A stretch of 64,000 nucleotides of DNA, taken from assembly GCF_004217565.1 (NCBI RefSeq), contig NZ_SHLA01000001.1, forward strand, positions 1,922,001-1,986,000, given 5' to 3'. Origin of the DNA: Zhihengliuella halotolerans. GTDB taxonomy: Bacteria > Actinomycetota > Actinomycetes > Actinomycetales > Micrococcaceae. Below are positions 51,974 to 59,483 of the stretch, piece after piece; within the stretch, counting starts at the first letter, position 1; every line of letters starts with the position of its first letter. The translations under genes were made by a program, and so were the position numbers. Under the pieces are notes generated by a model. The model did not search any database and was not told the DNA's origin. It saw only the letters and a program-made list of their open reading frames with translations.

Positions 51974-52525
51974 TCATACGGGTTCCAGCAGGCGCAGCGC
52001 GGCCTCTTTCGCGGCGGGGACGCACTCGACCGACCCCGCGATCCCGGCAGCGACCATCGCCCCCTCGGCGAGCAGGAACACCGCCCGGGCCGTGGCTTCG
52101 CCGCCGCCGGCGGCTCCGACGATTTCGCCGAGGTATCCGCGGAACCGATCCTTGTGCCGGCGGACAGCCGCAGTCACCTCAGGTGACTGCGCACCCAGCT
52201 CGCCGTAGGCGTTGACCCATGCGCACCCCCGATGTCCGGCCCCGGAGAGCCACCATCCCAGCCAGTCAAAGACCGCCCCCACGCTGGCCGCGGGTTCGAC
52301 CTCGAGCTCCACCCGGGAAGAGAGGGCACCCATCCACGCGTCGTCGCGCCGGTCGAGCATCGCGACAACCAGCGCCTCCTTGCCGGGAAAGTTCCGGTAA
52401 ATCTGCTTCAGGGAGACTCCGGAAGCGCCCCGCAGGTCGGCCATGGAGACCGCCTGATAGCCCTTCTCGTAGAACTCCCGCTCCGCCGCATCCAGGAGCA
52501 CCTCGCGCGCCGCTTCCAGTTCCAC
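51974..52525 (-). CDS. TetR-type repressor
   Basis: This 183-residue TetR-family protein has an N-terminal helix-turn-helix AAREVLLDAAEREFYEKGYQAVSMADLRGASGVSLKQIYRNFPGKEALVVAMLDRR. A C-terminal all-helical ligand domain of about 120 residues contains GAVFDWLGWWLSGAGHRGCAW and EIVGAAGGG. The GTG at 52525 follows GAAGGGA. The gene is divergent from the HPP gene. Two copies of the motif GAGAAT-N4-RTTCTC lie at the HPP promoter, so this protein most likely controls that gene and itself. Confidence 0.87.
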   Translation of the reverse strand: MELEAAREVLLDAAEREFYEKGYQAVSMADLRGASGVSLKQIYRNFPGKEALVVAMLDRRDDAWMGALSSRVELEVEPAASVGAVFDWLGWWLSGAGHRGCAWVNAYGELGAQSPEVTAAVRRHKDRFRGYLGEIVGAAGGGEATARAVFLLAEGAMVAAGIAGSVECVPAAKEAALRLLEPV

Positions 52526-52573
52526 AGACCAGTCCCTTCGCCTTGCCGGCCCACCGTTAACTCGAACGGCGTC

Positions 52574-52633
52574 TTGACGTAGAGAATACTCATTCTCTAC
52601 GCTCGACGCTACCGGGAGAATGGTCGTTCTCCC
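52574..52633 (+). promoter_or_regulatory. HPP promoter with two TetR operators
   Basis: TTGACG (52574-52579) and TACGCT (52598-52603) make a -35/-10 pair with 18-bp spacing. The spacer contains a perfect inverted repeat CGTAGAGAAT-actc-ATTCTCTACG (52578-52601). A second site, GGGAGAA(T)...(G)TTCTCCC (52614-52633), follows with its centre 34 bp downstream. Both contain GAGAAT-N4-RTTCTC and would be bound by the divergent TetR protein. Confidence 0.75.
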
Positions 52634-52665
52634 AGCGACAGCCCCAGCCAAGAGTCAGGAGCTCC

Positions 52666-53166
52666 ATGTCCACCCCCGCCCTTGCCACATCCCGACCCAG
52701 TGCACCGCCTCGCCCACCCTGGCAGCAGATCTTCACGTCGGTACTCGCCTCGACCGCAGCCCTCGGAACCCTGGTGGCCATGGGCCTGCTCACCGGGCAC
52801 GAGCTGCTCATTCCGCCGATGGCAGCCAGCATGGCGCTCGTGGCGGGCGCCCCGAACCTGCCCTTGGCGCAGCCGCGGAACGTCGTGGGCGGACAGGTTC
52901 TCTCGGCCCTGATCGGCGTAGGCGTGGGCTGGATCAGCCACTCGCTGTGGGCGGCGGCCATCGCCGGGGCGCTGGCCCTCGGCGTCATGGCCGCGACGCG
53001 GACGGCGCATTCTCCGGCGGCCGCGACCGCAGTGATCGGCTGCCTGGCCACCACGGACCAGGCCTCTTTCGTCCTGTGCGCTGCGGCGGCCTCGCTCGTG
53101 CTCGCCGGCGCCGGCTGGTTCCGTTCGCGGGTCGGCGGCCCTCGCTACCCGACCTACTGGTGGTGA
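52666..53166 (+). CDS. HPP family membrane protein
   Basis: This 166-residue protein has about four helices and the family-naming motif LIPPMAASMALVAGAPNLPLAQPRNVVGGQVLSALIG (His-Pro-Pro region, here IPP). Plant HPP proteins transport nitrite; bacterial ones are of unknown substrate, often beside TetR regulators. Expression is predicted to be controlled by two TetR operators at its promoter. The start is the first in-frame ATG after the operators, and the sequence GAGCTCC before it is not a strong ribosome-binding site. The region 53167-53252 after it holds no gene that I can see. Confidence 0.8.
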   Translation: MSTPALATSRPSAPPRPPWQQIFTSVLASTAALGTLVAMGLLTGHELLIPPMAASMALVAGAPNLPLAQPRNVVGGQVLSALIGVGVGWISHSLWAAAIAGALALGVMAATRTAHSPAAATAVIGCLATTDQASFVLCAAAASLVLAGAGWFRSRVGGPRYPTYWW

Positions 53167-53252: not shown

Positions 53253-53948
53253 TTAGTTGTAGGAGGCCAGGACATTGTTGAGGCGCGACGGCGTCGCCGA
53301 TGCGGGTGGCTTTCCGTGGCGCGCGCGGTCCGGTCAGTGGTAATTGAAGTGCCGGTTCCAGACTCCGAGCGCGACAGTCCGTTCGTCTTCTGAGCGCCAG
53401 GTGTGGGCATAGAGCAACTCGACAGCGAGGATGTGGTGGCACCGCTCGATCGGAGTGATGCCATCTGCGGCGAACCAGGTTCTAGCGCGATCGAGGAACC
53501 CGACGCCCGTGACGGCCTTCTCGTCTTCTCAGGCTTCGGTGTAGGCGAGCCTGGAGTGGCCGTCGATCGCGAAGTGCAGGAGGAAGTGCAGGAGTACGTA
53601 GCCGGTCTTGACTCCTCGCGTATTTGTGCCCACAACCGCCTTTACCTCGGAGCTATTTTCCCGTGGACGCACCGTCCTCCGCCGTCAGGGATACGGCCGG
53701 CTTTCTTCACGTCGATATGGACCATGTGGCCGGGACGTTGGGCGATGACCGTCTGCGGCTGCCGATTCGATTCGCCGTTCGGGTCGATGAGCCGCCGTCT
53801 CCGTGCTGTTTATACCGGTTTACCCACTTCGCAGCGGTCGCACGCAAGATGCCCCTCTTGGCGGCGACGTGAGCAGTCGAGCGGGTGCGACAACACGCAA
53901 TGAGCCGGTGGCGACTTCCGGCGTCAGCGGGGCGTTCTTGGGGGTCAC
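53253..53948 (-). pseudogene. Degraded IS481-type transposase
   Basis: Read on the minus strand, the start VTPKNAPLTPE matches IS481 transposases. After a frameshift come HVAAKRG and TAAKWVNRYKQHG, then a gap. A DDE segment RPGHMVHIDVKKAGRIPDGGG is visible in another frame. Later FAIDGHSRLAYTEA, an in-frame stop, DEKAVTGVGFLDRARTWFAADGI and a final NNVLASYN stop follow. At least two frameshifts, two in-frame stops and a missing middle (about 60 residues) mean it is dead. A short duplication, CTGCACTTC, occurs before the AIDGHSR motif. GC content is lower than the core. No clear terminal inverted repeats are visible. Its 5' end overlaps the TPR-like gene by 4 nt. Confidence 0.75.
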
Positions 53949-54454
53949 CCGGCCGCTCCGGGATCGGAGTCTCGACGGACGGTGTCGCGGTTGTCGATGG
54001 CCCTATGGACTTCGCAGATCGCCTCAAGGATGGTCGCACCATAGGGACCTTCGGGCAAAGCAGAACTGTGCTGCTTGGCATTGATGATGTATTTGGCGGC
54101 CACTTCGAACGCGCTCAGGCGGCGTAGGTTGTCGGCAATGTTGAGATAGAGACTTGGGTAGAACCCGGCCACCTGGAGGCTGGCATGGTGTTGTTGGGCG
54201 CGATCATCGGTCAACGAATCGGCAGCATCAAGCGCGCGAATGTCCCAGATGAGCGCTTCTGCCGGCTCTTGGTGGAGGTCAGCCATATAGTGAGCGAGCG
54301 TGCACCGGTGGAGCGGATCGCCCACCGGGCCTATCTGCTGCCAGATCGCCAGCAGGTTGCGTCGGGCCGACTCTTGCTCGCCTTGACGGCCTAAAGCCGC
54401 TGCGTTTCCAATTGCTTCCATTGTCAGGTCGGATGTTGCGGCAGATTCTGTCAT
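53945..54454 (-). CDS. Helical-repeat (TPR-like) protein next to the MerR-clamp gene
   Basis: This 169-residue, mostly helical protein has the sequence AAALGRQGEQESARRNLLAIWQQIGPVGDPLHRCTLAHYMADLHQEPAEALIWDIRALDAADSLTDDRAQQHHASLQVAGFYPSLYLNIADNLRRLSAFEVAAKYI. The repeating pattern of small and aromatic residues is TPR-like (two or three repeats). It resembles tetratricopeptide-like proteins of streptomycetes and other actinobacteria. The ATG at 54454 follows TAGAAC (54462-54467) by 7 nt, so longer in-frame starts are rejected. The C-terminal 25 residues border an IS481 remnant and may have been altered by it. Role unknown. Confidence 0.65.
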   Translation of the reverse strand: MTESAATSDLTMEAIGNAAALGRQGEQESARRNLLAIWQQIGPVGDPLHRCTLAHYMADLHQEPAEALIWDIRALDAADSLTDDRAQQHHASLQVAGFYPSLYLNIADNLRRLSAFEVAAKYIINAKQHSSALPEGPYGATILEAICEVHRAIDNRDTVRRDSDPGAAG

Positions 54455-54512
54455 GAGTTCGGTTCTATTCTTGAGGTCTTTTCGGGGCATGGTTTTGTAG
54501 AACAGTTGCACC

Positions 54513-55586
54513 TCACGCCGTTGGGGTCGTCCGATCGGGCAGACCGGCTCGACAGGGCATGACGAGTGTGGTGAGATCGCCATCGTCGGCCGATCGGATG
54601 GTGGCTGGCTGGTAAGTCCCACGCAGATCAATCAGCACGTCGTTGCCCAGTGCATGCCTTAACGCGGGAAATAACGTTGTCAACTCGAACCACACCGTCA
54701 CATCCAGACCCTTCGCTGTGCCATTGAGAGCCATATCCGTACCCGACAAAAGCAAGCTGGACCGGCCGCCCGAGATCCGCAGTCCGATCGTCGCCGGCGC
54801 GTGCTCGAGAGCCTTAAGGACCTGCCGCCTCTCGATAGTGAGGCGATGAGTCACTTCAGGTAAAGAGCCCAAAAGAAGCCTGTAGTCAGGGAAGATTTCG
54901 GTGTGCAGGCGGCAGTGGGCGACCCCATCCTCCGCGCGAAAGTAAAAACTCAGCTCGCTCACTTCTAGTGTCACCGTGGGGCTTCGGCGCAGCCAGGAGA
55001 GCGTCGCTTGGACATCTTCGCCCACCAGTGTCCCTGACCACGAAACACTAGACGCCTTGCTAGGTACTAGCGTTCTTGTAGCTAGGCGATACCGATCCGT
55101 CGTTGTCAGTGAGATTGAGCCGGGGTCGGCTTCCAAACGGATACCCGCCAAGGCCGGGGCCTCCGGGTCGTGAACAGTCGATGCCAGGACCTCGTCGATC
55201 GCCGCCGCGATGACCGGACCCGAAAGCGCACCGATCACGATGCCGGGGTCCGCTACGAGGGAGGCCTTAAGCATCTCAGCCGTCCGTTGCACTGAGGCGG
55301 CTTCTGCGCTGGCCTTCGCCATCTGCTGGTCGATGAGTAGTGCAGCTTCAGTAGTAGAAACGGTGAAAAAGCGCCCGATAGTCGACAACGGCATCCCGAT
55401 CTCGCGAAGCTGACGCAATTGCGAGGCAGGCAATACTTGGGACTCACCATAGAACCGGTAACTCGTTAACGGGTCCACCAGTTCAGGTCGGAGCACGTCA
55501 GCATCGTCATAGAACCGCAAGGCGCTCGTTGTCAGTCCGACGCGTTTCGCGAACGCACCAATCGGCATCAAATCAGGATCAGTCAC
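54513..55586 (-). CDS. MerR-type HTH fused to DNA polymerase III beta-clamp-like domains
   Basis: This 357-residue protein begins with a MerR helix-turn-helix (residues about 6-75: MPIGAFAKRVGLTTSALRFYDDADVLRP and SQLRQLREIGMPLSTI) and a linker helix (80-115). Residues about 118-346 look like domains II and III of the bacterial sliding clamp. They carry TTDRYRLAT at 162-170 (clamp TDGHRLA), EIFPDYRLLLG at 230-240 (clamp FPDYRRVLP) and the terminal TTLVMPCR at 339-346 (clamp VVMPMRL). Clamp domain I is absent and the MerR domain takes its place. GTG 55586 is 6 nt from CATGAT (55593-55598), with TTGACC at -35. The TPR-like gene follows 58 nt later. Confidence 0.85.
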   Translation of the reverse strand: MTDPDLMPIGAFAKRVGLTTSALRFYDDADVLRPELVDPLTSYRFYGESQVLPASQLRQLREIGMPLSTIGRFFTVSTTEAALLIDQQMAKASAEAASVQRTAEMLKASLVADPGIVIGALSGPVIAAAIDEVLASTVHDPEAPALAGIRLEADPGSISLTTTDRYRLATRTLVPSKASSVSWSGTLVGEDVQATLSWLRRSPTVTLEVSELSFYFRAEDGVAHCRLHTEIFPDYRLLLGSLPEVTHRLTIERRQVLKALEHAPATIGLRISGGRSSLLLSGTDMALNGTAKGLDVTVWFELTTLFPALRHALGNDVLIDLRGTYQPATIRSADDGDLTTLVMPCRAGLPDRTTPTA

Positions 55587-55663
55587 ACGACCATCATGGA
55601 GCTTCAACCAACTCGAAGGTCAACCCGAGCTGTCACCGTCAACAACCTCCTGGCCAACAACAG

Positions 55664-58806: not shown

Positions 58807-58824
58807 ATATACAATGGTTTATAT
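58807..58824 (+). promoter_or_regulatory. AT-rich dyad upstream of vapB
   Basis: ATATA (58807-58811) and TATAT (58820-58824) form an inverted repeat spaced by 8 nt, just before the AGAGGAGG ribosome-binding site. VapB-VapC complexes usually bind such AT-rich operators to autoregulate. Confidence 0.45.
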
Positions 58825-58840
58825 AGAGGAGGTTCCCATC

Positions 58841-59071
58841 ATGGCTATTACAAGCATCGACATTTCCGGCGACCTGCTCCGGCAGGCCCGGAGCCTGACC
58901 GGCGCAAGCTCCAATCGCGAGGTGGTCGACCTAGCGCTCCGACGCCTGATCGCGCACAAGTCCAAGCAGCAGATGGTTGATGCCATCAGCCAGCTGGCCG
59001 ACCTCCCGTCGGGCCTTCATGCACCGACGATCAAGCCCGGGCAGCCTGACCAGCACCGAGACGCCCAGTAG
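58841..59071 (+). CDS. vapB: VapB-type antitoxin
   Basis: This 76-residue protein has a ribbon-helix-helix-like N-terminus (ITSIDISGDLLRQARSLTGASSNREVVDLALRRLIAHKSKQQMVDAISQLADL), matching the VapB family that binds operator DNA. A flexible C-terminus (about 55-76) would wrap and inhibit the VapC toxin. A strong AGAGGAGG element precedes the ATG, and an AT-rich dyad sits just upstream. The next gene, vapC, starts 4 nt after its stop. Confidence 0.85.
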   Translation: MAITSIDISGDLLRQARSLTGASSNREVVDLALRRLIAHKSKQQMVDAISQLADLPSGLHAPTIKPGQPDQHRDAQ

Positions 59072-59075
59072 AAGC

Positions 59076-59483
59076 ATGACCGACTACCTGGTCGACAATT
59101 CAGTCTGGTCCCGAGTGGCCCAGCAAGTTCCTCGTGTTCTTGCCCGGGTCAACGCGATCGTTGCCAGCCCATCGGACGCGTTCGTCACCTGCCCACCCCA
59201 GGTACTGGAGTTCTGCCACTCCGCCCCGCCAGATCAACACGAGCGTTACGTTGATGCGATCATGCTGGGCTTTCCACTCGAGCACCATCCGAACGAACAT
59301 TTCGTTCTGGGCATCCAGCAGGCGCTCTGGTCTCACGGACTGCATCGTGCAGCCGGCCCAACCGACATTCTCATCGCCTCGTATGCCATCCTCAACGAGG
59401 CCACCGTCCTCGCCTGCGATCAGGACTACAGCCACATCGCGCGCGTCGACGACAGGCTCGCTTACGAGTATTTGTCCCCTTGA
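59076..59483 (+). CDS. vapC: VapC-type PIN ribonuclease toxin
   Basis: This 135-residue PIN-domain protein has acidic residues D7 (YLVDNSVW), E45 (QVLEFCH), D97 (PTDILIASYA) and D115/D117 (ACDQDYSHIA) placed as the metal-binding catalytic set. VapC toxins cut tRNA or rRNA and are neutralised by VapB. The gene follows vapB by 4 nt. The antitoxin-first order and AT-rich operator fit a complete type II module; the RNA target is not predictable. Confidence 0.88.
   Translation: MTDYLVDNSVWSRVAQQVPRVLARVNAIVASPSDAFVTCPPQVLEFCHSAPPDQHERYVDAIMLGFPLEHHPNEHFVLGIQQALWSHGLHRAAGPTDILIASYAILNEATVLACDQDYSHIARVDDRLAYEYLSP

Follow-up and report, generated by a model that had tools for sequence, protein, structure and literature searches.

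Within a 64,000-nucleotide stretch of the Zhihengliuella halotolerans genome (contig NZ_SHLA01000001.1; hereafter the window) we find a gene encoding a MerR-type regulator whose DNA-binding domain is joined to domains II and III of the sliding clamp, DnaN, and we lean towards reading this fusion as a protein that senses and soaks up clamp-binding antibiotics and regulates its own gene, akin to TipA and AlbA. The computation supports the clamp fold, a retained pocket, lost dimer-interface residues, an operator, an autoregulatory layout and a linkage to exporters, with good support for both the architecture and the autoregulatory layout. A clamp-binding antibiotic is, on balance, the ligand we would expect, because the pocket is selectively retained and exporters are linked to the family; we infer that the protein is activated upon binding and that it sequesters the drug.

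The N-terminal helix-turn-helix (HTH) of the fusion matches two Pfam models, PF13411 (37.2 bits, cut-off 21.6) and PF00376 (30.7 bits, cut-off 28.2), and the best PDB matches of residues 8-79 are chains of the multidrug-efflux transporter 1 regulator (E 1.8e-9), which we take to be BmrR. Of the clamp only domains II and III are present, the MerR part occupying the place of domain I, and the protein scores 41.1 bits against the NCBIfam equivalog for DnaN, TIGR00663, under its cut-off of 137.65. The Pfam model for domain III gave no match in the single fusion protein, and neither a TipAS-type ligand domain nor a GyrI-like effector domain appeared among the Pfam matches reported at E up to 1. The helix predicted at residues 78-112 is a candidate for the antiparallel coiled coil through which MerR-type proteins dimerise. 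The Pfam matches and the clamp alignment of domains II-III confirm two statements of an earlier note made from the letters of this DNA, namely that a MerR HTH is joined to clamp domains II-III and that domain I is missing, with the MerR domain in its stead.

The same note had singled out TDRYRLA, FPDYRLLL and LVMPCR as landmarks of DnaN. All three hold up, and because the pocket residues are kept, they can be assigned to the walls of the pocket that in clamps is the site for partner peptides (PMC11139829, available in part), the pocket to which griselimycin and mycoplanecin bind (PMC10817943, available in part). For the pocket and the dimer interface we used the residues given in PMC11139829 (available in part), transferred by alignment to Escherichia coli DnaN numbering. 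The family was assembled as 57 loci, with the genomes G693, G758 and G863 contributing two each; six loci were dropped from the residue alignment, three for broken frames (L143, L144 and L147), two for want of a clamp match (L146 and L148) and one for an overlong frame (L118), while L112 and L113 were retained despite an absent or weak clamp match. Among the 51 fusions so aligned, M362 and P363 are invariant, P242 is kept in 50, an arginine at position 174 in 49, T172 in 48, tyrosine or histidine at 175 in 45, R176 in 45, L177 in 40 and R365 in 34. When eight core positions are scored (T172, R174, Y/H175, R176, L/M177, P242, M362 and P363), 34 fusions keep all eight, 13 keep seven, three keep six and one keeps five. 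Across columns where E. coli and five further clamps share one residue, the nine pocket columns keep that residue in a mean of 42.0 of 51 fusions, compared with 13.4 of 51 for the 33 other columns (p 5e-5). Judged by these residues, the family keeps the peptide and griselimycin pocket, subsite I being preserved and subsite II partly so, and the suggestion that the clamp fold serves as a ligand domain is supported.

The residues with which clamps dimerise have fared differently. E. coli E304 is found in none of the 51 fusions and E298 in one, and E303 is still glutamate in eight; the stretch between E. coli positions 258 and 318 measures 49 residues in the window copy as compared with 60-61 in clamps, and across the fusion family its median is 52 (range 21-63). 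For the DNA channel, which is positively charged in clamps, the net charge of the four inner helices, with assumed helix bounds, averages -2.7 in the fusions and is -1 in the window copy, +3 in E. coli and -1 to +2 in five DnaN proteins. Because the pocket is kept and the dimer-interface residues are lost, we regard the fusion as a sensor rather than a ring. The ring- or half-ring-forming protein proposed earlier is not supported, since domain I is missing and the dimer interface of domain III has been deleted or replaced. The homology of domains II-III might also suggest that the fusion forms mixed clamps with the host DnaN and acts directly at the replisome, but with domain I absent, E298 and E304 lost and the 258-318 stretch shortened we give this idea almost no credence. 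It is also very improbable that the fusion is decayed or non-functional: disrupted copies do occur (L035, L143, L144 and L147, where assembly errors are possible), but the 51 open copies, down to 21% identity to the window copy, keep the pocket and the HTH, and most keep the promoter.

The promoter itself has the layout expected of a MerR-regulated gene, dyads and spacers of 19-20 bp being a known hallmark of MerR promoters (PMC10189885, available in part). All 57 loci, broken and doubtful ones included, enter the counts for operators and gene context. The operator pattern consists of TTGACC, a 19-bp spacer containing a dyad, and a -10 element; a strict form of it stands near the fusion's own start in 45 of the loci and a looser form in 51. 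The hexamer lying 19 bp past the -35 element has A at its second base and T at its sixth in 50 of 51 loci; with the spacing set to any of twelve other values between 13 and 25, no more than 10 of 51 show such a hexamer. Measured from its first base, the site lies 37 or 38 bases ahead of the start codon in 47 of 51, and because the -10 element then lies only 6-7 nt from that codon, the message is probably leaderless. Six loci have no operator at their own start; two of these (L146 and L148) are doubtful members, and in the other four (L108, L109, L110 and L115) the operator stands instead directly ahead of the next gene, a major facilitator superfamily (MFS) exporter. Two further loci, L106 and L111, carry it twice, at the regulator and again at the MFS gene beside it, so that six loci altogether have an operator before an adjacent exporter gene. 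The 3.58 Mb of the window genome contain a single exact instance of the pattern, at the fusion promoter, and a scan allowing two mismatches gave 10 sites, as against 10 in the reversed control; we claim no wider regulon. As a layout read from the sequence, autoregulation of the fusion through its own MerR-type promoter is well supported.

Genes next to the fusion fall into two recurrent kinds. An MFS gene adjoins it in 12 of the 57 loci, on the same strand downstream in ten, upstream in one and convergent in one; a match 1.4 kb upstream in L135 (E 6.6e-7) was excluded from this count. Given the well-supported branches of the tree, MFS linkage must have changed three times or more. A homologue of the small TPR-like protein lies downstream of the fusion in 17 of the 57, the window among them, although its matches to TPR models are weak and below cut-off. 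Under one gene-calling rule an MFS gene follows the fusion in 6/57 and a TPR gene in 15/57, as compared with 1/836 each for other genes of the loci; as both profiles derive from genes beside the fusions, this enrichment counts only partners of those kinds.

In the mechanism we propose, the fusion would be a one-component MerR-type drug sensor whose HTH dimer occupies the 19-bp-spacer promoter of its own gene, and the former clamp domains II-III, no longer a ring, would present the pocket to antibiotics of the griselimycin and mycoplanecin kind. Ligand binding would shift the dimer into a DNA-distorting, activating state, whereupon the leaderless operon would be transcribed, yielding more of the clamp mimic to soak up the drug and, besides, a TPR-like helper in the window, its place being taken elsewhere in the family by an MFS exporter. 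The regulator would act as a repressor-activator on its own promoter and as a self-amplifying decoy. The wider proposition, that two clamp domains became the sensor of a transcription factor, so that a drug target freed from its ring is both decoy and detector, and that the family marks clamp antibiotics, unknown ones included, we consider evenly balanced.

The family is sparsely distributed. Full-length relatives occur in 3 of the 149 genomes of the family sample, counting the window genome, the other two at 66% and 28% identity, and the four further members of the window's genus that were sampled gave no match better than E 3.6e-7. Counting the window genome again, matches at E 1e-35 or better were found in 20 of 396 genomes of the order sample and 32 of 394 of the class sample, a few of these matches spanning just part of the profile and the two samples sharing genomes. 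In the phylum sample 9 of 296 genomes had a match at E 1e-45, all from the same class, the share of the 296 that lies outside that class not being given; the class is presumably actinobacterial, to judge from Gordonia zhenghanii and from plasmids of Streptomyces and Kitasatospora. Among 72,556 plasmid records, eight match over 80% or more of the query; seven of these eight carry the annotation ‘MerR family transcriptional regulator’, and transposases adjoin some of the plasmid copies. The fusion gene and its TPR-like partner have a G+C content of 60% (0.66 at third codon positions) against 68.7% for the window. Taken together, the patchy counts, the plasmid copies and the low G+C make the fusion look like an accessory gene that moves horizontally. 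The clamp parts of the 51 fusions lie on one side of a branch, with 34 host and phage clamps on the other (SH-aLRT 97.6 in a quick tree; six of these clamps form the host side), which suggests that a single fusion event gave rise to the family. A profile search of viral contigs returned 29 loci in which every match begins in the clamp part, with no MerR fusion shown.

Three observations on individual copies may be recorded here. The operon in the window, 53945-55623, stands out as a low-G+C island, at about 60% where the window as a whole has 68.7%, and was probably acquired. In Gordonia zhenghanii the fusion is disrupted (L035:5980-6823, 54%), consisting of two overlapping frames with the central part missing. 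A Streptomyces plasmid copy, L151 (NZ_CP033583.1), has a plasmid-borne dnaE some 3.5 kb away; DNA resembling this dnaE block is present on 94 plasmid records, so the nearness may mean nothing.

Several points weigh against an antibiotic sensor. Retention of the pocket shows selection on the pocket and not the identity of the selecting ligand, because real clamps conserve these residues too. Subsite II is weakly conserved, with N320 in 15 of 51, Y323 mostly replaced by phenylalanine or threonine and V344 variable, and the corresponding residues of the window copy are E301, T304 and Y325. The good structure model was built from an alignment that included 28 phage clamps, and the model from a three-row alignment was poor (predicted local distance difference test score 40). 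Neither partner is present in 28 of the 57 loci, whose neighbours (27 read) are mixed; efflux is not universal, the window copy itself has no MFS partner of this kind, and each change of MFS linkage on the tree may be either a gain or a loss. Elsewhere, relatives of this TPR gene lie beside ung, the uracil-DNA glycosylase gene, in 10 of 30 loci read from 53 matches (by a motif test, two of the ten being confirmed by Pfam), a proximity that hints at DNA metabolism. No copy was tied to a gene cluster for a clamp antibiotic, and no systematic search for such clusters was made. Separately, a link between plasmid copy H1 and griselimycin was rejected, as the paper's table gives griselimycin for another strain, ADI98-12, and not for ADI95-16.

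Some of these points would fit the chief rival, already raised in the earlier note, that the fusion reads the state of replication or repair: the pocket would bind, or lose, the clamp-binding motifs of polymerases and repair proteins and so report replisome stress to the operon. In its favour the pocket is the partner-peptide site of the clamp (PMC11139829, available in part), and there is the recurrent ung neighbourhood. However, subsite II, which in clamps accommodates the glutamine of partner peptides (same source), is the poorly conserved part; the operator recurs ahead of MFS exporter genes; the sole exact operator in the window genome is the fusion's own; and a patchy distribution with plasmid copies is unlike that of a core replication sensor. 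We rate this reading as unlikely, and as less likely than drug sensing, chiefly in view of the operator-bearing exporters, the patchiness and the weak subsite II. Alternatively, the clamp fold might be a recruited scaffold whose pocket now takes unrelated small molecules, giving multidrug sensing of the BmrR or TipA type. The variation of subsite II across the family and the MFS linkage of several subclades would agree with this, but a freely drifting pocket would be expected to change, and subsite I has stayed clamp-like, M362 and P363 being present in all 51 fusions; this too seems to us unlikely, and a shade more so.

We know of no described MerR-type drug sensor with a sliding-clamp sensor domain, and among the matching open-licence papers listed we found no work on a MerR-clamp fusion. 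What sets the fusion apart from known MerR drug sensors would be the sensor itself, taken from the very protein that the antibiotic attacks. AlbA (albicidin) and TipA (thiostrepton) share with the fusion a MerR HTH, a coiled coil (predicted in the fusion), a C-terminal domain for drug binding (putative in the fusion) and an autoregulatory layout, and the AlbA promoter likewise has a 19-bp spacer and a dyad, stands before its own gene and occurs once in the genome (PMC10189885, available in part). Unlike them, the fusion would sense with two sliding-clamp domains in place of TipAS, and its operon adds a TPR-like or MFS gene. Regulators of the BmrR/EcmrR type resemble it in the HTH and in exporter linkage but carry a GyrI-like ligand domain. 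With DnaN it has in common the fold of domains II-III and the partner and antibiotic pocket, and it differs in lacking domain I and the dimer-interface residues and in having a MerR HTH in front. GriR and MypR, the spare DnaN genes of the griselimycin and mycoplanecin clusters (PMC10817943, available in part), are also clamp-derived and tied to clamp-antibiotic defence, a role that in the fusion would be analogous, but they are second DnaN genes and not transcription regulators.

Coordinates of the features are collected in Table 1. Elsewhere in the window, a VapB antitoxin and PIN-domain pair of VapBC type (by Pfam) lies at 58814-59483, and a TetR regulator adjoins an HPP-family membrane protein gene at 51974-53166, outside the low-G+C island. 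Beyond the window, the recurring neighbourhood of ung with a TPR-like gene comprises L195-L198, L201, L203, L205, L207, L211 and L213, which probably come from Streptomyces.

Table 1. Features of the fusion operon (window coordinates)
Feature	Position	Strand	Remarks
MerR-clamp fusion regulator	54513..55586	-	357 aa; GTG start at 55586
MerR DNA-binding domain, residues 7-78	55353..55568	-	Pfam MerR_1 7-72; PDB BmrR
Long helix, residues 78-112	55251..55355	-	predicted helix, in the position of the MerR dimerisation coiled coil
Clamp domain II, residues ~117-239	54870..55238	-	Pfam DNA_pol3_beta_2; pocket motifs TDRYRLA (163-169) and FPDYRLLL (232-239)
Clamp domain III, residues ~240-347	54546..54869	-	shortened in the dimer-interface region; closed by pocket motif LVMPCR (341-346)
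MerR-type promoter/operator	55593..55623	-	sequence layout: -35 TTGACC at 55623-55618; -10 CATGAT at 55598-55593; 19-bp spacer containing dyad GACCTTC-N9-GAAGCTC; six bases from -10 to start codon
Small TPR-like protein	53945..54454	-	169 aa; second gene of presumed operon, 58 bp past fusion stop

If our reading is true, a fragment of a core replication protein would have been captured as the sensor of a one-component regulator. The fusion would then serve, as it stands, as a specific biosensor for inhibitors of the sliding clamp, a class of target that has been validated against tuberculosis (PMC10817943, available in part). The prediction is testable directly with compounds and proteins that already exist. 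Environmental resistance to clamp inhibitors could then take the form of a self-inducing clamp decoy, with an exporter added in some lineages, and the family, with its local operator and exporters, would be a genomic marker of clamp antibiotics in nature, including those yet unknown.
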